Source: Deltaproteobacteria bacterium (GTDB lineage: Bacteria > Desulfobacterota > Binatia > Binatales > Binataceae). Taken from it: a stretch of DNA of 64,000 bases. The position numbers and the translations under genes are program-made. The notes beneath the pieces were generated by a model, which worked only from the letters and a program-made list of their open reading frames with translations, was not told the origin of the DNA and did no database searches. Positions within the stretch are counted from its first letter, which is position 1. Every line of letters starts with the position of its first letter. Location: positions 1 through 64,000 of the forward strand of contig JAKBMB010000009.1 of assembly GCA_021831785.1 (NCBI GenBank), in the 5' to 3' direction. Shown one piece after another: positions 14,126 to 24,802 of this stretch.

Positions 14126-15337
14126 ATGACAGCAGGGGGACCGCTCGATGGAGTGAGGGTTTTGGACCTGTCCAAGCTTGCGCCGGGACCGCATTGCACC
14201 ATGATCCTCGGCGATCTGGGTGCGGACGTAATCCGGATCGAAGAGCCCGGACCGCCCACCGGACGCAGAGCCGAGCAGGCCAGAGCGGCGGGAATAAAGC
14301 CCGTGAACGTGGCCGCTCACATGAGCTCGCCTTACAACGCGCTGGCGCGCAACAAACGCTCGATCGGCCTCAATTTGAAGAGCCAGCCCGGCAAGGAGAT
14401 ATACATGCGCCTGGCGCAAAGGGCCGACGTGGTGGTGGAGGAATTCAGACCCGGCGTGGCCGAGCGGCTGGGAATAAGCTACGAGACCATCTCCGCGCGC
14501 AACCCGCGGCTCATCTACTGCGCGATCACCGGCTACGGCCAGGACGGCCCCTACCGCGACCTCGTCGGTCACGACCTCAACTACATCGCGACCGCCGGCG
14601 CGCTGTCGATTATCGGGCGCCCCAACCAGCCGCCGGCTATCCCGCACAATCTGCTCGCCGATTACGCCGGGGGCGGGATGCACGCCGCGATTGGAATTCT
14701 CGCCGCCCTTTTCGCGCGTCATCAAACCGGCCGCGGGCAGTACGTTGATGTGGCGATGTTGGACGGCACGATGCTGCTCTTGGCTCAGGCCTTTTCCGGC
14801 TACTTCGCCAGCAACCGCGTCCTCGCGCGCGGCGAGAGCCCGTTTGACGGCGGGGCGCCGTTCTTCGACGCCTACCTCACCAAGGACGACAAGTACGTGA
14901 CTATCGCTTCGATCGAGCCGTGGTTTTTCGCCAACCTCTGCCGCGCGCTCGGGCGCGAGGACTTGGTCGTGATGCGCGAGGACAAAAGCCGATATCCCGA
15001 GATGCGGCGCGCGTTCGAAGAAACCTTCCGCCAGAGGACCCGCGACGAATGGTTCGAACTGCTGAGCAAGACCGACGTCTGTGTCGGCAGGATGTTGACC
15101 CTGGACGAGGTTGAAGGCGATCCGCAGGTCAAGGCGCGCCGGATGGTGCTTGAGCTCGACACGCCTGGCGGCGACCGCGTCAAGCAGGTCGGCGTATCGC
15201 TCAAGTTCTCCGACACGCCCGGTTCCGTGCGCCGCCTGGCGCCCCAACTCGGCCAGCATACGGACGAGATATTGCGCGAGCTCGGCTACCGAGACGCCGA
15301 TATCGCGCGATGGCGCGAGCAGGGCGCGCTGAAATAG
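14126..15337 (+). CDS. CaiB/BaiF family CoA-transferase
   Basis: Class III CoA-transferase of 403 residues that moves CoA between a donor acyl-CoA and an acid acceptor through an aspartyl-CoA intermediate. Seen: GVRVLDLSKLAPGP at the N-terminus, LGADVIRIEEPG, RNKRSIGLNLKS, ADVVVEEFRPGVAERLG, the ITGYGQDGP stretch and GHDLNYIATAG, with the catalytic Asp of the family expected at GHDLNY. GRGQYVDVAMLDG and C-terminal LSKTDVCVGRM fit alpha-methylacyl-CoA racemase-like members. A GAGG precedes the ATG. It could be a racemase or a transferase; the sequence does not decide. Confidence 0.9.
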   Translation: MTAGGPLDGVRVLDLSKLAPGPHCTMILGDLGADVIRIEEPGPPTGRRAEQARAAGIKPVNVAAHMSSPYNALARNKRSIGLNLKSQPGKEIYMRLAQRADVVVEEFRPGVAERLGISYETISARNPRLIYCAITGYGQDGPYRDLVGHDLNYIATAGALSIIGRPNQPPAIPHNLLADYAGGGMHAAIGILAALFARHQTGRGQYVDVAMLDGTMLLLAQAFSGYFASNRVLARGESPFDGGAPFFDAYLTKDDKYVTIASIEPWFFANLCRALGREDLVVMREDKSRYPEMRRAFEETFRQRTRDEWFELLSKTDVCVGRMLTLDEVEGDPQVKARRMVLELDTPGGDRVKQVGVSLKFSDTPGSVRRLAPQLGQHTDEILRELGYRDADIARWREQGALK

Positions 15338-15511: not shown

Positions 15512-16390
15512 GTGAGCGAAAGCATACTCGGGCCCACGTCCCACTATTTTTACTCGCAGCGCCTTAAGCTTCACTATGTGGACTGGGGCAATCAGGCGAA
15601 GCCCCTGCTGGTTCTGGTTCACGGCAGCCAGGACCATTGCCGCAACTGGGACTGGGTGGCGCTCGAACTGCGCCGCTACTTTCATATTGTCGCGCCCGAC
15701 TTGCGCGGCCACGGCGATTCGGACTGGGCTATCGGCGGGAGCTACGCGATGATCGATTACGTCCTTGACCTGGCCCAACTTATGGACGTGCTCGACAATC
15801 CGCAAACTTTCGTTATCGGACACTCCTTGGGCGGCGGGGTGGTGCTCCAGTACGCCGGGGTGTTTCCCGAACGGGTCGAAAAAGTGATCTCAATCGAAGG
15901 GCTCGGCCCGCCGCTCTCGATGATCAAGCACGCGCCGGCGCACGAGCGGATGCGCACCTGGATCGGCGCGATGCGCGAGTTGGCCGCGCGCAAGGCGCGT
16001 CATTACTCGACCGTCGCGCAGACCGTGGAGCGCATGCGCGAGGCCAATCCCAATTTGACTCAAGAGCAGGCTTTTCATCTCACCGTTCACGGCGTGCGCC
16101 GCAACGAGGACGGAACCTACTCCTGGAAATTCGACAATTACACCCGTTCGACTTCTCCCTTTCGATTCAACCTTGACGAGGCCAAGGAGATCTGGAGCCG
16201 CATCGCCTGTCCGTGCCTCTTGATCCAGGGCGGCGAGTCAAAAAAGTGGAGCATCGACTGGGAGATGGACCGGCGCGCCGATGCTTTCCGCGATGCGCAA
16301 AAACTCACGATCGAAGGCGCCGGTCATTGGGTTCACCACGATCGTCTGGACGGCTTTCTTAACGCGGTGCGCCGATTCTTCGGCCTGTGA
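15512..16390 (+). CDS. Alpha/beta hydrolase
   Basis: Alpha/beta-hydrolase-fold enzyme of 292 residues. The family signature is clear: VHGSQDHCRNWDWVA (oxyanion region), HIVAPDLRGHGDS, the nucleophile elbow GHSLGG near residue 105, an Asp/Glu region around CLLIQGGES, and the catalytic His in EGAGHWVHHD near residue 275. It resembles epoxide-hydrolase/haloalkane-dehalogenase-like members; the substrate is unknown. It starts at a GTG preceded by GAGGAGG about ten bases upstream. Its stop overlaps the GTG start of the ClC gene (GTGA), indicating translational coupling. Confidence 0.88.
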   Translation: MSESILGPTSHYFYSQRLKLHYVDWGNQAKPLLVLVHGSQDHCRNWDWVALELRRYFHIVAPDLRGHGDSDWAIGGSYAMIDYVLDLAQLMDVLDNPQTFVIGHSLGGGVVLQYAGVFPERVEKVISIEGLGPPLSMIKHAPAHERMRTWIGAMRELAARKARHYSTVAQTVERMREANPNLTQEQAFHLTVHGVRRNEDGTYSWKFDNYTRSTSPFRFNLDEAKEIWSRIACPCLLIQGGESKKWSIDWEMDRRADAFRDAQKLTIEGAGHWVHHDRLDGFLNAVRRFFGL

Positions 16391-18426
16391 CTTACACCGC
16401 CGACAACCTGCGGCCCGCCGCGGCTCAGGCGGGCAGCCAGATCGCGCGGGCGCTGCGCGTAGGACCCGGCCAGTTCGAGTACGCCCGCTTGATCGGCGCC
16501 GCGGCGCTGGTGGGAATCTTCGGCGCGATGGCGAACCTGGCTTTCCGCTGGCTGATCGCCGAGAGCGCCTGGGTGTTCCTCGTTTTTGAGTGGCAGCGGT
16601 TGCGGATTCCCCTGGTGCTGGTTCTGGTCAGCGGCGCGGTGCCCTTGCTGGCGTTGCATTATTTGTTCCCCGGTGAAGTGCTAGGCTACGGATTCCCCGG
16701 CTTTCTCGCCGTGCTTCATTTAGGTGGGGCGAAGATTGAGCGCCGTTGGATTTTTATCAAGACGCTGGCGGCGGCGATCTCGCTCGGTGCCGGCGCCTCG
16801 GTGGGCCGCGAGGGGCCTATCGCGCAGGTGGGCGGTTCAATCGGCGCGACCGTGGCGCAGGCGATCAAACTCACTCCCGGCCGGCGCAAAGTGCTCGTGG
16901 CCTGCGGCGCCGGGGCGGCGATCGCGACCACCTTTAACGCGCCCATCGGCGGCCTGCTGTTCGCCCAGGAGATAATTCTGCTCGGCGACATGGAGCTCGC
17001 CAGCTTGACCCTGCTGATTATCGCCACCACCAGCGCAGTGATTACCTCTCACGCCCTGGCCGGCAACGCGGCGGCCTTTCGTGTCGGGGCGTTCGAGTTT
17101 CTGAGCGACGTCGAATTAGCGACATACGCCGCAATGGGCTTGTTCATGGGGCTTCTGTCGGCGGGCTTTATCAGGCTGTTCTATCTGACGCGCGGATGGT
17201 TCGGCGCGCGCGACTATCCGGTATGGGCGCGGCTCGGTTGTGGCCTGGCGATCGTTGGTCTTATCGCCACGGCCCTGCCCGAGAACTTGTCCGACGGATA
17301 CCCGGTGATCAACGCCGCGCTGGCTGGCCGCTTGGCGCCGAGCCGGATGGCGCTTTTGGCGGTAGCCAAGATTGTTGCTTCATGTGTCTCGCTCGGATGC
17401 GGTGCGCCGGGCGGCGTTTTCGGTCCGATTTTCTTCATCGGTACGATGGTTGGTGGGACGTTTCGCGGCGTCTCCACCTTGCTCGCGCCCAAATTAACCG
17501 GGCCCAGGGGTTCGTACGCCTTGGTGGGTCTCGGCACGTTTCTCGCGGCGACCACGCGCGCCCCGCTGACCGCGGTGTTTTTGCTCTTCGAGATGACTCG
17601 CAGCTACACGATCGCGCTTCCCATCCTGGTCAGCAGCACGCTCGCCTTGCTGGTCTCGCGCCGCCTCGAACGCGAGTCGATTGACACTTACGCGCTGGCG
17701 CTCGACGGGAAAAGCTTGGAGATCGGGCGCGAACGTTTGGTGATGAAGCAGATACCGGTGGCGGACGTTATGACCACCGACTCCATCGCTCTATCTGCTG
17801 AAGCGCCCTTGGTCGAGGTGCTCAGAGTCGCGGGCGACGCCTCGCTCAGCAGCCTGCCCGTCGTTGACCGCGACGGCGGACTGGTCGGCACGATTTCCGT
17901 GCGCGATCTGCTGGCGCTGCTCGCGACCGGAATCGATCTCGGCCCGCTGGTCAACGCCTACGACTTATGTCGACGCTCCGCACCCGTCGTCACGCCGGCT
18001 TCGAATATCGACGAAGCGCTGCAAGCGATGGATTTCGACATTTTGAACGAGTTAGCGGTCGTTGAGGCCGGCGAAAAGCGCCAGTTGGCCGGCATCGTGA
18101 CCCGCCAAGCCATCGCGCAGGCCGCCAGCCGCGCCGCGATCTCGCTATCCGCGGTGTCAGCAGCCGACGCTGATATCCCCTGGTCAACGGGCTACCGCGT
18201 GATCCGGGTGACGATCCCGGCCGGCGCGGCGGGCAAAACTCTGCGCGAGCTCGAACCGCGGGCGAAATTCGGCGTAAGCGTGCTCGCCGTGTGCGACGCC
18301 GCCAAGCCCACTGGCGGGTTTATGCTCGGCGACCCCGACCGACCGCTCAAGGGCGGAGACGTTATCGTGGCGGCGGGCCGTCCGAGCGCGCTGCGTCTTT
18401 TTCAACGCGAGCTGGCGCAGCCTTAA
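16387..18426 (+). CDS. ClC-family chloride transporter with CBS pair and RCK-C-type domain
   Basis: ClC chloride channel or H+/Cl- exchanger of 679 residues. The membrane part spans about 35-435 with the family signatures GYGFPGFL, GREGPIAQVGG and APGGVFGPIFF; the N-terminal GSGIP-type motif reads GYGFP, so the usual selectivity Ser is changed. The cytosolic part has two CBS domains (about 455-575; VADVMTTD, VGTISVRDLL) that often bind adenosine nucleotides, then a TrkA-C/RCK-C-like domain (about 598-679; IPAGAAGKTLREL, LKGGDVIVAAG). It starts at a GTG overlapping the hydrolase stop. It is convergent with the Ser/Thr kinase gene, 152 bp away. Confidence 0.92.
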   Translation: MTYTADNLRPAAAQAGSQIARALRVGPGQFEYARLIGAAALVGIFGAMANLAFRWLIAESAWVFLVFEWQRLRIPLVLVLVSGAVPLLALHYLFPGEVLGYGFPGFLAVLHLGGAKIERRWIFIKTLAAAISLGAGASVGREGPIAQVGGSIGATVAQAIKLTPGRRKVLVACGAGAAIATTFNAPIGGLLFAQEIILLGDMELASLTLLIIATTSAVITSHALAGNAAAFRVGAFEFLSDVELATYAAMGLFMGLLSAGFIRLFYLTRGWFGARDYPVWARLGCGLAIVGLIATALPENLSDGYPVINAALAGRLAPSRMALLAVAKIVASCVSLGCGAPGGVFGPIFFIGTMVGGTFRGVSTLLAPKLTGPRGSYALVGLGTFLAATTRAPLTAVFLLFEMTRSYTIALPILVSSTLALLVSRRLERESIDTYALALDGKSLEIGRERLVMKQIPVADVMTTDSIALSAEAPLVEVLRVAGDASLSSLPVVDRDGGLVGTISVRDLLALLATGIDLGPLVNAYDLCRRSAPVVTPASNIDEALQAMDFDILNELAVVEAGEKRQLAGIVTRQAIAQAASRAAISLSAVSAADADIPWSTGYRVIRVTIPAGAAGKTLRELEPRAKFGVSVLAVCDAAKPTGGFMLGDPDRPLKGGDVIVAAGRPSALRLFQRELAQP

Positions 18427-18578: not shown

Positions 18579-20105
18579 TTATTCGGCGGCGCCCGGCGCT
18601 TCGTCCACTTTGATGTGATCGCTCAGCGTGACCGCGCCGGTGATGGCAAACGCGGTGGCCTCGATCTGGAGCCGGTCGGCTTCGGTGGGCACGCTTCCCC
18701 ACAACTCGATACTCTGGCCGTGAACCTTGAAATGGATCGACGTGTAGCCTTGACCGTCAAGGATGCGGCGCAGCGCAAAGGCGCGCAGCGCATCCGCGGG
18801 CGAGGTCTCCGGCGCCTCGATCGGCGGCGGCGCGTGCGCCTCAGGCCCGGGCACTTCGTCGTGTCCGCCCATCAGGGCCAGCAAAATCGCTGCGAGGCCC
18901 ATGAAGAGGTGGGGCAAGACCCTCAGCACGACCACGCCGAGAATTATCATGACGAAAAAGGCCGTCAATGGACGGCGTTTCCTGCGCCGCACGACGCGAT
19001 GGAATTGGTCGGGCTGGGTCCGAAGCGTGGCCGCTTGCTCGTGCGGCTCGCCGGTCCCCGCGGGGGCATCACTCGGTGCGGGCGCGGAAGCAAGATGCGC
19101 CGCCCCGAGCACCAGCCGCAGGTCGGCTGCGCAATACGAGCAGAAGCTGGAATCGGCCGGAATCAATCGCGTGCAGACCGGGCATGCCGTTTCGCCGCTT
19201 TTGATGCGCACGGTCGGAGCGGACGCCGGCGGCATCGGCGCGCCGCTGGGCGATGCGGCCGGCGCGGCAGGTGCCGCCAACGGCGCTGCACGGGCCGGCG
19301 CGCCGGCGCCCCTAATCGCGAGCAACCGGGCCTTGAACTCGGCGGCGCTTTGGATGCGCCGTTGGGGGTCGTAACTTAGCGCGTGCCCAACCAGCGCGGC
19401 GAGCAAAGGATCAAGCTGGGGGCAGAGCTTCTCCAGCGGAGGAAAGCTAAACGGCGGCTCGCTCGCCGGGTCGCGCCCGGAAAGCAGATGATGCATCGTC
19501 GCGCCCAGCGAATATAAATCCGAGCAGCGCTCGACCTTGCCCCGGTACTGCTCGGGCGGCGAATAGCCCTGCGTGCCGATCAGCGTGGCGTTGCTTTGCG
19601 GTTGGAAGAAGCGCGCGATGCCAAAGTCGATAAGCTTCACCTTCCCGGTTGAGGTGAGCATCACGTTCGACGGCTTGAGGTCGCGGTAAACTACCGGCGG
19701 CTCCAAATTGTGTAGGTATTCGAGCGTGTCGAGAATCTGCAGCGCGATGTCGACCACCCGGCCCTCATCCAGACGGCCGCCGGAGGTCCGCAGAAGCTGC
19801 TCGAGGGTGTCACCCTCGACGTACTCCATGACCAAGTAATGGTGGTTCTGCTCGCTAAAGCGGTCGTAGATGCGCGGGATATGCTCGTTGTTGAGCTGCG
19901 CCAGCATGTCGGCTTCACGTTGAAAGCTAATCAACGCGGCCCGCTGAGCCTGGGGCTCGGTGAAGCTGTCCACCATCTCGGCCAAGGCGCAGCGGCGCGA
20001 GGCCAGACGCAGATCTTCCGCCAGATAGACCAGCTTCATGCCGCCGCCGCCGAGCGGAGTCAACACTCGGTAGCGGTTGCCGACCACCGTATTTGAACTA
20101 ATCAT
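18579..20105 (-). CDS. Ser/Thr protein kinase, WNK-like lysine placement, with zinc ribbon, TM helix and BON domain
   Basis: Eukaryote-like protein kinase of 508 residues. Kinase domain about 11-270: glycine loop GGGGMKLVY (19-27), YRDLKPSN catalytic loop, IDFGIARF, GTQGYSPPEQY and SDLYSLGATM are intact. The beta-3 lysine (VAIK) is replaced: the strand reads CALAEM with Ala42, while a lysine sits in the glycine loop at residue 24, where PKA has its third glycine. That is the WNK arrangement, so activity may be kept. Next come a Pro/Ala linker, a zinc ribbon (CPVC...CSYC), a membrane helix (about 372-398) and a C-terminal BON-like domain probably outside the membrane. The FHA membrane protein lies upstream on the same strand. 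Confidence 0.9.
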   Translation of the reverse strand: MISSNTVVGNRYRVLTPLGGGGMKLVYLAEDLRLASRRCALAEMVDSFTEPQAQRAALISFQREADMLAQLNNEHIPRIYDRFSEQNHHYLVMEYVEGDTLEQLLRTSGGRLDEGRVVDIALQILDTLEYLHNLEPPVVYRDLKPSNVMLTSTGKVKLIDFGIARFFQPQSNATLIGTQGYSPPEQYRGKVERCSDLYSLGATMHHLLSGRDPASEPPFSFPPLEKLCPQLDPLLAALVGHALSYDPQRRIQSAAEFKARLLAIRGAGAPARAAPLAAPAAPAASPSGAPMPPASAPTVRIKSGETACPVCTRLIPADSSFCSYCAADLRLVLGAAHLASAPAPSDAPAGTGEPHEQAATLRTQPDQFHRVVRRRKRRPLTAFFVMIILGVVVLRVLPHLFMGLAAILLALMGGHDEVPGPEAHAPPPIEAPETSPADALRAFALRRILDGQGYTSIHFKVHGQSIELWGSVPTEADRLQIEATAFAITGAVTLSDHIKVDEAPGAAE

Positions 20106-20413: not shown

Positions 20414-21703
20414 TCATGCTCGAAACAACAGTTGCACGTCGCCTACGCCCACCACGTCGCCGTCGTGGAGCCGTGCCTCGCTGACGCGCTGTCCGCCGAC
20501 GTAGGTGCCGTTGTGGCTGCCAAGGTCCTTGACGAAGAATCCGCCGTCGCGCGGCTCGACCACCGCGTGATAGCGCGACACCGAAGGCATCATCAGCACG
20601 ACCTCGTTGTCAGTCTCCCTGCCGAGACGGGTCGAGACGTCTGCGCGCAAGGGGAACTCGCGGCCGTTTTCATCGATCAGCCGCGGGCTGGCGGCCGCGC
20701 CGGCCGCGGGCGCGCGGCCGACCGGCGCGGCGTGGCGGGCGGCGGGCGTTGGCGCCGAGACGCCGGCCGCGGTCTTTCTCGAGTGAAAGCGCAGCTCATA
20801 GTCGCCAATTTTGATCCGATCGTCTTCGCGCAGGGTCGCGGTCGAAACCGCCTGGCCGTTGACGAAGACGTTGGCGCCGCCGCTTAGGTCCTTGAGCACG
20901 AAGTCGTGTCCCCGGCGCGCGATCTGAGCGTGCCTGGGCTTAACCGCCGGATCGCCGAACAGCCCAACGTCGTTTTCCTCGGCGCGGCCGATGCCGACGA
21001 CCGCCTTTTCCAGCGGAAATTCGCGCCCGCGCAGCCGTCCCTGCTCGACCTTGAGCCACGCCGCCTTGGTCAGCTCGTGAACCAAACCGATGAACAGGCC
21101 GATCGCCAGTCCGACCGCGCTGAAACCGAAAAAGCGCGCCGCCATGCCGCCCTGGGTGGCGGCAGCGATCGCGTCAAACGACAATCCGCCGACAACCCCG
21201 CCGATCAAGCCGCCAAGCCCGCCTTTTATCACATTGGCCACGACCAGGCTTGCGACCCCCACGCCCACTCCGATGAGCGCTCCTTCTATCGCCCAGCCCA
21301 GGGCGCGCGCCATCACCAGCACGATAATCGAGCCATGGACCATCTCGCCTTGGGGGCTGAAGGCGACGCCGCCCCACTGCAGCACGGAATTAAAAATGCG
21401 ATCGGAAAAATAGCTCGAAAATAGAGAGAGCACGGCGCAGATGATGAATCCGCGCAAAAGCCGGCGCTTGATCTGCGGCGTAATCACGACCAGGGGCAAT
21501 TCGACCGCCAGAACCAGGCCGCCGATCAAGCCGGCCAGGATTGCCTGACCGACGTAATTGCCCAGAACCAAAGTGACGCTGATCGCCTCGCCGAGCCGAT
21601 GGCCGTGCATGACCAGTTCGTTGGGCATCCAGCCGAGCGCCCCGCCGACGAATCCGGCCAGTCCCTTTAGGAAAAGTTGGCGCCGGTTAAGGTCAGCCTC
21701 CAT
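20414..21703 (-). CDS. Membrane protein with two C-terminal FHA domains
   Basis: Protein of 429 residues likely to read phosphothreonine marks at the membrane. The N-terminal half has several hydrophobic helices (about 37-65, 72-90, 110-195, the last very Gly-rich as in glycine zippers). The C-terminal half has two FHA domains: about 225-300 (GIGRAEENDV, KPRHAQI, NVFVNG) and 350-429 (RLGRETDNEV, VSRYHAVV, GSHNGTYVGG), joined by an Ala/Pro linker. The second has the canonical GR, SxxH and NG signature; the first has KPRH in place of S(R)xH. Same strand and upstream of the Ser/Thr kinase, a natural partner. Confidence 0.88.
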   Translation of the reverse strand: MEADLNRRQLFLKGLAGFVGGALGWMPNELVMHGHRLGEAISVTLVLGNYVGQAILAGLIGGLVLAVELPLVVITPQIKRRLLRGFIICAVLSLFSSYFSDRIFNSVLQWGGVAFSPQGEMVHGSIIVLVMARALGWAIEGALIGVGVGVASLVVANVIKGGLGGLIGGVVGGLSFDAIAAATQGGMAARFFGFSAVGLAIGLFIGLVHELTKAAWLKVEQGRLRGREFPLEKAVVGIGRAEENDVGLFGDPAVKPRHAQIARRGHDFVLKDLSGGANVFVNGQAVSTATLREDDRIKIGDYELRFHSRKTAAGVSAPTPAARHAAPVGRAPAAGAAASPRLIDENGREFPLRADVSTRLGRETDNEVVLMMPSVSRYHAVVEPRDGGFFVKDLGSHNGTYVGGQRVSEARLHDGDVVGVGDVQLLFRA

Positions 21704-21984: not shown

Positions 21985-23229
21985 ATGAGGCAAGATACCT
22001 TGCTGCCGGAGCGGTTCGGACCGCTCCAGGGGGTGCGAATCATTTCTTCCGGCAGGCTTATCGCGCAGCCTTTCGCCGGCGAGCTTGCCGCGGAGTGGGG
22101 CGCGGAGGTGATCAATGTCGAGCAGCCGGGCGCGGGTGACGTTGGCTGGCGCACCGTGGGAATCTGTCTTGAGGCGGCCGACGGCGGACCGGCGGTGTCG
22201 GCTACCTGGCTCCAGGAACGCCGCAACGAGCTTTGCGTGAGCCTGGACTTTTCCAAACCGCGCGGGCGCGAGCTTTTCCTTAAGCTTATCCCGCACGCGG
22301 ACATCTGGATGGAAAGCGGCAAGGCTAATACATACGCCAGGTGGGGACTTGACGACGAAACCGTGCTCAAGGCCAACCCGAAGCTGGTGATCACGCATGT
22401 CGCCGGCTACGGTCAGTACGGCGACCCCGGATACGTCAATCGCGCGGCTTATGATTTTATCGGCCAAGCCTTCGGCGGAATGATGTTTCAGACCGGGTTC
22501 CCGGACCCGAGTCCGCCAACGCGCGCCGCGCCTTGGACCGGCGACTACATCGCCGCGTATATGTGTCTGGGCGCCTCCCTGGCCGCGCTTCACTATGCCC
22601 GCTCGACCGGCAAGGGACAGGTGATTGACCTGGGCCACTTCGAAGCGATTCATCGCACGCTCGGCGGTACGATGGTCGAGTACTTTCACAAGGGTGTGGT
22701 CCGCGAGCGCAGCGGCAATAAAGCGCAGGCCTTTCAGCCCTACGATACCTTCCAGGCGCGCGACGGATGGGTGCTGATCGGCTCCGTAACGATGCCGGTT
22801 TTCGAGCGCGTGTGCAAGGTTATCGGGCTCGACCCGAGCGACCCTAAATGGCGCAAGGCGCAGAGAGAGGTCGAGTCAATCGAAGGAATCGAGTTCGACG
22901 CCATCTTGCGCGGATGGGTCAGCGAGCATACGGTTGCCGAAGCTGAGCAGTTGTTCAACGAAGCGCAGGTTCCATCATGTCCGGTAATGACCAGCCAGGA
23001 TATCGCCGAAAATCCGCATTATAAGGCGCGTAAGGTCCATGTCGAATGGCATGATGACCAGGTGGGCAAGGTCAAAGGTATCGGCGTTATCCCCAAATTC
23101 TCGGCCACGCCCGGAAAAATCTGGCGCGGCACGGTCAGGGTCGGTCATGACAACGAGCGGGTCTACGGAACACTTGCCGGGCTCAGCAAAGCGGAAATCG
23201 AAGCTCTAAGGCAGGAGCAGGTTATCTAG
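21985..23229 (+). CDS. CaiB/BaiF family CoA-transferase
   Basis: Second class III CoA-transferase in the window, 414 residues and only distantly similar to the one at 14126. Seen: GPLQGVRIISSGRLIAQPFAG, WGAEVINVEQPG, RRNELCVSLDFSKPRG, ITHVAGYGQYGDPGYVNRAAYDFIGQA (the family's active-site region, AYDF in place of the usual HDL) and GKGQVIDLGHFEAI. This N-terminal pattern resembles carnitine/crotonobetaine CoA-transferase (CaiB)-like members. GGGAGG precedes the ATG. No acyl-CoA dehydrogenase or hydratase sits next to it, so the substrate is open. Confidence 0.88.
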   Translation: MRQDTLLPERFGPLQGVRIISSGRLIAQPFAGELAAEWGAEVINVEQPGAGDVGWRTVGICLEAADGGPAVSATWLQERRNELCVSLDFSKPRGRELFLKLIPHADIWMESGKANTYARWGLDDETVLKANPKLVITHVAGYGQYGDPGYVNRAAYDFIGQAFGGMMFQTGFPDPSPPTRAAPWTGDYIAAYMCLGASLAALHYARSTGKGQVIDLGHFEAIHRTLGGTMVEYFHKGVVRERSGNKAQAFQPYDTFQARDGWVLIGSVTMPVFERVCKVIGLDPSDPKWRKAQREVESIEGIEFDAILRGWVSEHTVAEAEQLFNEAQVPSCPVMTSQDIAENPHYKARKVHVEWHDDQVGKVKGIGVIPKFSATPGKIWRGTVRVGHDNERVYGTLAGLSKAEIEALRQEQVI

Positions 23230-23740: not shown

Positions 23741-24802
23741 ATGCTTGAGCGGCTAAGCTCCATCGAGGAACGTTTCGCCGAACTCGAGGGCAAACTCGGC
23801 GAAGCCGGGGCCGCTGCAAACAGCCGTGAGTACGCGCGGCTTGCGCGCGAGCACGCTCAGCTCGAGCCGCTTATCCTGCGGGCACGCGAATATCGCCGTC
23901 TTACCGAGCATATCGGCCAGCACAAGGCGCTGCTCGAAGACAAGGATCGCGAGCTGCGGGAGCTGGCGAAGCAGGAGTTGCCGGCCTTCTTGGCGCGTCA
24001 GAGCGAACTCGAAGCCGAGCTCAAACACCTTTTGGCGCCGCAAGACCCCAACGACGAACGAAATGTAATCCTCGAGGTCCGGGCCGGAACCGGCGGCGAG
24101 GAGGCCTCGCTGTTCGCCGCGGAACTGCTGCGCATGTACACGCGCTACGCGGAAGAGCACGGGTGGCGGTTCGAGCTGCTGAGCGCGAGCACCACCGGAC
24201 TGGGTGGCGTCAAAGAGGCCGTGGCCTCGATCAATGGACGTGCGGCGTACAGCCGCCTTAAGTTCGAGGGCGGGGTCCATCGCGTGCAGCGCGTGCCGGC
24301 TACCGAGGCCTCCGGCAGGATTCACACCTCGGCGGTCACCGTCGCGGTGCTTCCGGAAGCGGACGAGGTCGAGGTTCATATCAACGAGGACAAAGACCTG
24401 AGAATCGACGTGATGCGCGCTTCCGGACCGGGCGGACAGAGCGTGAATACTACGGACTCGGCGGTACGCGTAACCCATCTGCCGACCGGGATGGTGATCG
24501 TGTGCCGAGACGAGAAATCCCAGCATAAGAACAAAGCGCGCGCGCTCAAGATCCTGCGCGCGCGCTTACTCGAGCGCGCGCGCCAAGAGCAGGACGCTCG
24601 AATCGCCCAGAGCCGGCGCTCGATGGTTGGCACGGGCGACCGCTCGGAGCGCATTCGCACCTACAACTTTCCTCAGTCGCGGGTCACCGACCACCGCGTC
24701 AATCTGACGCTTCATCAACTGGACCGCGTGCTCGACGGCCAGCTCGACGCGATTATCGACGCGCTCATCGTGCGCGAGCAGGCCGAAGCCCTAAGCGCGT
24801 GA
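23741..24802 (+). CDS. prfA: Peptide chain release factor 1
   Basis: Class I release factor of 353 residues that reads UAA and UAG stops. It has the N-terminal helical domain, the codon-recognition region with [15 protein letters not shown] (PAT in place of the usual PxT form), and the catalytic GGQ in [17 protein letters not shown] at about residue 229, whose glutamine is methylated by the product of the next gene. [12 protein letters not shown] is typical of RF1. The stop overlaps the prmC start by four bases. Confidence 0.96.

Follow-up and report, generated by a model that had tools for sequence, protein, structure and literature searches.

Passages in two earlier papers (PMC4718504, PMC1821047) describe how in WNK1 a lysine of strand beta-2, K233, stands in for the Lys72 of other kinases and is required for catalysis. 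The part of the 2007 microbial kinome survey that deals with this residue (PMC1821047) names the WNKs as the only functional ePK family without K72, and a section of the 2016 review (PMC4718504) adds PRPK as a kinase that is also active without the typical beta-3 lysine. Like the kinase described below, the CAK-chloro kinases, as the same portion of the survey presents them (R55/M72; PMC1821047), show a basic side chain at position 55 where the charge at position 72 has been lost, but they carry Arg/Met instead of Lys/Ala, their helix-C glutamate is replaced by phenylalanine, and they are no ePK-like protein kinases. Bacterial pseudokinases are treated in PMC12599244, where WNK is mentioned as an analogy in the part concerned. 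Term searches of PMC2877116 and PMC1262709 gave no mention of WNK, and among the papers listed by our searches of the literature outside subscription journals, none described a Hanks-type kinase from bacteria whose lysine is placed as in WNK.

Within the 64,000-nucleotide stretch of DNA analyzed here (the window), an open reading frame on the minus strand (18579-20105, 508 aa, ATG start) encodes a Hanks-type Ser/Thr kinase (PF00069, E 2.3e-39, 135.8 bits versus a cut-off of 31.7 in the Pfam scan). It has a lysine in the glycine-rich loop (G loop), and alanine occupies the site of the VAIK lysine. The gene, its residues and domains of interest, and its two neighbors are the following.

18579..20105, minus strand: Ser/Thr kinase gene, WNK-like, 508 aa (open reading frame and Pfam; ortholog in 40 of 41 genomes of the same family)
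19311..20072, minus strand: kinase domain, residues ~12-265 (PF00069 at residues 12-215; PDB PknB matches to 265-276; AF2 model)
20034..20036, minus strand: K24, lysine for the third glycine of the G loop (position of PKA G55 and WNK1 K233), first residue of beta-2 (alignments, AF2)
19980..19982, minus strand: A42, alanine for the VAIK lysine (position of PKA K72; Cys in WNK1), within beta-3 (alignments, AF2)
19914..19916, minus strand: E64, helix-C glutamate (PKA E91), expected partner of K24 (invariant in the alignment)
19116..19196, minus strand: zinc-ribbon-like segment CPVC...CSYC, residues 304-330 (Pfam below cut-off: DUF7575 3.6e-4, DZR 4.7e-3)
18897..18965, minus strand: probable membrane helix, residues ~381-403, with RRRKRR just before it (read by eye)
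18606..18800, minus strand: BON-like C-terminal domain, residues ~436-500, predicted to be extracytoplasmic (Pfam BON, AF2, Foldseek)
20414..21703, minus strand: protein with two FHA domains, upstream neighbor (Pfam FHA 3.5e-34, two stretches)
16387..18426, plus strand: ClC chloride channel/transporter with CBS and TrkA-C, convergent neighbor (Pfam Voltage_CLC 1e-75)

Glycine-loop lysine and beta-3 slot of the window kinase

The motif of the window kinase reads GGGGMK-LVYLAEDLRLASRRC-ALAEM, with CALAEM in beta-3. The first-pass annotation had placed a lysine at residue 24 and an alanine at residue 42, had described the YRD and DFG motifs as intact, and had likened the position of the lysine to that found in WNK kinases, and all three statements held. 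The two codons, read in the DNA, are AAG (20036-20034) and GCC (19982-19980). YRD and DFG are present, the APE-type glutamate is also kept, and E64 corresponds to the helix-C glutamate. In a joint alignment with WNK1 (GRGSFK and VAWCEL in the PDB sequence), made with one residue more in the beta-2/beta-3 turn, K24 falls on the G-loop lysine of WNK1 and A42 on its beta-3 cysteine. The closest canonical paralog encoded in the same genome (GGGGMG...CAIKEM) is 52% identical over query residues 10-284 and aligns without a gap along the motif stretch.

We also searched the alignments of 20 and 41 orthologous rows for another lysine filling the beta-3 slot, an arrangement that the annotation had named as speaking against its proposal, and none was found. 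The VAIK lysine is absent from the whole window family (A42 in 41/41 rows), and no lysine other than K24 is invariant over residues 1-95 of the 20-row alignment or residues 5-97 of the 41-row alignment. An AF2 model of residues 1-270, computed from 20 orthologs (mean pLDDT 77.3, pTM 0.80), places K24 as the first residue of beta-2 (24-31) and A42 within beta-3 (37-45), the quality of the model being middling in the N-lobe (10-residue means of 60-81) and poor in the activation segment.

By VIA-align, the fold closest to the kinase model was that of Mycobacterium tuberculosis PknB (Z 23.8, rmsd 4.0, 246 aligned), and no WNK chain was among the best 50 of that list. Foldseek gave Staphylococcus aureus Stk1 as the closest structure and chains of WNK1 and WNK3 at ranks 29 and 48, and WNK was not among the best 60 of 1215 sequence matches. 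The nearest sequence and fold matches among those listed were the bacterial kinases PknB, Stk1, and PknA. The profile of Stk1-type PASTA kinases (NF033483) was matched with an E value of 9.8e-60, its 203.1 bits not reaching the cut-off of 450, and the Pfam scan detected no PASTA domain in the window kinase. With Hanks kinases of the PknB/Stk1 kind the window kinase thus shares its best sequence and fold matches and an adjoining FHA partner, but it differs from them by an apparently relocated catalytic lysine and by a BON-like outer domain instead of PASTA.

With the WNK kinases it shares the lysine at the third glycine of the loop, a small residue without lysine in the beta-3 slot, and the helix-C glutamate. 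It differs from them in that the slot is occupied by alanine (41/41 rows and 8/8 divergent paralogs) whereas WNK1 has cysteine, and in that it belongs to a bacterial PknB-like lineage, with a zinc ribbon, a membrane helix, and a BON-like domain. A further difference concerns the position of WNK1 Leu369, which is Phe161 of the DFG motif in the window family (41/41 rows and 8/8 paralogs). The WNK1 chloride site involves Leu369 and Leu371, and, according to the portion of PMC7606576 that deals with it, L369F raised autophosphorylation and L369F/L371F was chloride insensitive. Since the window family has phenylalanine and isoleucine at these two positions, chloride sensing like that of WNK1 is not expected, and judging from these residues the WNK1 chloride site is probably absent from the window kinase.

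Conservation of the exchange and its occurrence in the phylum

A scan of genome contigs gave 20 orthologs with 50 to 78% identity, every one of which had GGGGMK and CALAE. When 96 related genomes were searched, the 41 that belong to the window's family of uncultured soil bacteria all had an ortholog except one, which is 53% complete, and K24 and A42 were both kept in 40/40 ortholog-bearing genomes, so that the two residues are coupled throughout. The 41-row alignment represents these 40 genomes, because the window's own sequence was entered twice (from the window and as locus L029). Invariant in all 41 rows were K24, A42, E64, R141, D142, K144, N147, D160, F161, G162, and E185; in PKA numbering, the invariant positions were G50, G52, K55, A70, A72, E91, Y164, R165, D166, K168, N171, D184, F185, G186, and the APE glutamate. 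Eight divergent paralogs matched the invariant set, K24 and A42 included, with tyrosine, histidine, or phenylalanine at the position of the HRD histidine.

The 65 loci yielded 45 distinct DNA stretches, in which K24 was encoded by AAG (33) or AAA (12) and A42 by GCC (34), GCG (5), GCT (4), or GCA (2). As the residues are fixed while their codons vary synonymously, selection holds these amino acids. An error of assembly or annotation was rejected because 40 genomes concur and their codons vary in this manner. The initial proposal that the two changes represent a swap rather than decay is thus upheld by the retention of K24, A42, and the catalytic residues in 40 genomes and 8 paralogs, and likewise by a second family described below.

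Several genomes of the family carry extra, more divergent swapped paralogs (L069-L073, L235, L247, and L251), one of which (L073) reads CALAVM instead of CALAEM. At E <= 1e-90, a profile of the window family matched 47 of 145 class genomes, of which 38 belong to the window's family (f1) and 9 to family f5. The six f5 kinases that were read (L074, L076, and L239-L242) have the canonical glycine and lysine, as do 17 of 20 sister loci, the remaining three being the swapped paralogs L235, L247, and L251. The canonical pair was also found in three kinases of the window's own genome and in two class-mates.

We then established a baseline from 118 kinase-domain matches in 49 genomes of the phylum, of which 89 loci were read, giving 90 domain rows. 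None of these 90 rows had a lysine at the position of K24, the 29 matches left out of the baseline including six from the window's own genome (the window kinase among them), two second-family kinases of genome G176, and a kinase with two lysines (G178:C13). The beta-3 column was lysine in 86/90 rows, and the four exceptions (L156, L158, L225, and L230) were taken as shifted alignments because a lysine sits one or two residues off, as read by eye.

A search for codons spelling GGxKxVYxA matched 39 of 395 genomes. The matches were fetched and translated except for those of G200, G224, and G254; G349 had no open stretch bearing the motif. Among the translated matches, 10 kinases belonged to the window family and 9 to the second family, 2 kinases had a double lysine, and the others were not kinase-like. 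L106 (G178:C13:46893-47639) and L102 (G286:C1:2385016, split across frames in the stretch read) are divergent kinases that carry a lysine in the G loop as well as in the beta-3 slot, and it is possible that they give a picture of an intermediate state. Two scans of viral contigs found no relatives. Plasmid scans yielded many kinases, and the five that were read (H31, H36, H43, H52, and H56) have the beta-3 lysine and a glycine, alanine, or serine in the G loop, never a lysine.

A second swapped family and the number of origins

The window's own genome encodes another kinase (C14:197713-198522; L021, L122, and L127), reading GEGGSK...EVAFALIR, that displays the same lysine move and belongs to a separate family. 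Over the 530 aa scanned, this protein is composed of a zinc ribbon, then the kinase, and then a guanylate cyclase, and it bears a weak likeness to the TOMM kinase/cyclase profile TIGR03903 (150.9 bits; cut-off, 705.75). At E <= 1e-55, the second family was detected in 13/145 class genomes, with a G-loop lysine in 15 of 15 matches, and it also occurs in G104 (seven matches, six of them read) and G176 (two matches), two more genomes of the phylum. A second-family query against 297 phylum genomes matched five at E <= 1e-18, two of which (G273 and G324) proved canonical. The 23 distinct rows, drawn from 15 genomes, all keep the G-loop lysine; the beta-3 slot holds alanine (20), serine (2), or glycine (1), and the catalytic residues are kept save for one leucine in place of the HRD arginine and one in place of the DFG phenylalanine. 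We also considered whether ALIK in this family might be VAIK displaced by a three-residue insert, but in several members the lysine of ALIK becomes R, P, D, or another residue while the G-loop lysine is constant, and this candidate was rejected. The second family resembles the window family in its invariant G-loop lysine and small beta-3 residue (Ala/Ser/Gly), whereas it differs in the architecture of its own-genome member (zinc ribbon, kinase, guanylate cyclase) and in forming a clade of its own (100/99 in the second and third of the trees described below).

Every tree was built without the trait's own columns and from chosen subsets, trees 1, 2, and 3 including 18, 11, and 9 of the 23 second-family rows and 40, 12, and 8 of the 90 baseline rows. 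In the first, quick tree (83 rows), the two swapped families appeared as separate starred groups, and a joint clade of both withstood an AU test (p-AU 0.163). In the second, careful tree (62 rows, 20 sister kinases added), a branch with 100/99 support separated the families and the joint clade was rejected (p-AU 0.0018), L235, L247, and L251 being counted as swapped in the AU tests. A single window-family clade was not rejected on this tree (p 0.19), in which the swapped L247 and L251 lie apart from the clade of canonical sisters, a position that by itself costs a third change under a canonical root. Because of this placement, the two changes counted on the tree might instead be reversals, and canonical outgroups were therefore added for the third tree. 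These were L169, a YRD kinase of the phylum, and L295-L297, plasmid kinases of Paenibacillus, Agathobacter, and Gemmatirosa; their exact places are unsure because of long branches, and two of them join each other.

In the third tree (58 rows), all members of the window family, paralogs included, formed one clade (99/97) nested among canonical kinases. A canonical root required two gains of the swap versus four changes for a swapped root, and the joint clade of both swapped families was rejected (p-AU 0.031). In both the second and the third tree, neither of which contains a WNK row, the window family nests with bacterial canonical sisters (100/99). The first-pass annotation had suggested a tree of bacterial kinases with GGxK loops, and the third tree, like the analysis without trait columns as a whole, favors two separate gains. 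Since the same move is found in a second, separate bacterial family, bacteria seem to have acquired this trick on more than one occasion.

Probable function of the locus and alternative explanations

Outside the kinase fold, the cysteine pattern of the zinc-ribbon-like segment is retained in the ortholog alignment. The basic stretch preceding the hydrophobic segment, both read by eye, suggests that the kinase lies inside and the BON-like domain outside. The Pfam BON match (residues 444-501, E 0.014) is below the cut-off; an AF2 model of the C-terminal 84 residues is BON-like (pLDDT 81.4), and its best Foldseek match was OsmY (E 8e-4), followed by CdsD and DolP.

A homolog of the FHA gene lies 200 to 510 bases upstream of the kinase gene, on the same strand, in 20/20 ortholog loci. 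FHA domains bind phosphothreonine, and the FHA protein encoded beside the window kinase is thus likely a phosphothreonine reader. The ClC gene, which ends 152 bases from the kinase gene in the window, occurs in the flank of 13/20 ortholog loci and is missing within ~5 kb in six, one locus having too little flank; this adjacency is sufficiently accounted for by a gene order conserved in one family, and we claim no functional role for it. Two open reading frames that we take to be CoA-transferase-like (14126-15337 and 21985-23229) flank the region, followed by a presumably release-factor-like one (23741-24802), and a homolog of the second CoA-transferase-like frame is found beyond the FHA gene in 15/20 ortholog loci.

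We consider it most likely that the product of the window gene is a catalytically active Ser/Thr kinase, anchored in the bacterial membrane, with K24 taking over from the beta-3 lysine, and that it is WNK-like by convergence and not a WNK, the swap having been gained twice independently in bacteria. In the model that we infer for its activity, the contact of K24 with ATP, its topology, its signal, and its substrate, the lysine that anchors the phosphates would have left beta-3 (PKA K72) and would now sit where the glycine-rich loop ends (position of PKA G55). From there, K24 would pass the small side chain of A42, reach the ATP phosphates, and pair with E64, as is thought for WNK1 K233. A small residue in the slot, be it A in the window family, A, S, or G in the second family, or C in WNK1, would fit such an entry of K24. 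The exchange of G for K and of K for A would have taken place in the ancestor of the gene, in one Binataceae-like family and inside the PknB-like kinases, and the second family (kinase then guanylate cyclase in the own genome) would have made the equal exchange independently. The BON-like outer domain probably senses an envelope signal, with output through the adjoining FHA protein. It could also be that K24 is fixed for a different purpose, in a kinase that is weak.

A missing VAIK lysine is a usual sign of a pseudokinase, and families of bacterial pseudokinases exist, as set out in part of PMC12599244; the protein might accordingly bind ATP weakly or not at all and retain its domain as a scaffold or allosteric partner. 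We hold this to be unlikely, since all 41 rows have E64, R141, D142, K144, N147, D160, F161, G162, and E185, so that neither the HRD aspartate (D142) nor the DFG aspartate (D160) has been lost, and since a fixed new lysine matches the lost one while slot 42 remains alanine without drift. A pseudokinase would not be expected to conserve the whole remaining catalytic set. As to history, one ancient swap common to both families, followed by a return of the sisters to the canonical state, would agree with the first tree, in which one clade was not rejected, and with the second, in which two changes fit gains or reversals and a reversal would be allowed by where L247 and L251 fall. With the added canonical relatives, however, the window family is one clade inside canonical kinases, a swapped root costs four changes against two gains, and the joint clade is rejected; as reversal moreover requires two residues to change back, we find this history quite improbable. 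Gene transfer from a eukaryotic WNK is scarcely credible: the identical two positions are changed and WNK1 and WNK3 do appear in the Foldseek list (ranks 29 and 48), but the nearest listed matches in sequence and fold are bacterial, the family nests with bacterial canonical sisters, and the window kinase has DFG where WNK1 has Leu369.

Going beyond the preferred reading of an active kinase with a moved lysine, one may imagine that WNK-type catalysis was invented in bacteria on two or more occasions and that in the window family the emptied beta-3 slot is a regulatory pocket as in WNK. The kinase would then be a sensor of ion or osmotic stress with a BON domain of the OsmY kind and an FHA readout, possibly acting on the ClC protein (whose gene is close by in 13 of the 19 loci that have sufficient flank). 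This picture we regard as very improbable. Since a chloride site of the WNK1 type is unlikely (Phe for Leu369), another ligand would fill such a pocket.

If the preferred reading is true, two bacterial families with the lysine move, one of them fixed family-wide, would indicate a repeatable evolutionary path and not a single eukaryotic accident, and motif-based calls would misfile swapped kinases as pseudokinases. Canonical sisters within the same genomes would offer natural comparisons for why the G-loop site substitutes and why the old slot stays small. In the window's own genome, canonical YRD kinases are clustered at C4:213164-217730, one of them with an FHA-like end (a candidate), and provide a natural canonical control for the window kinase.
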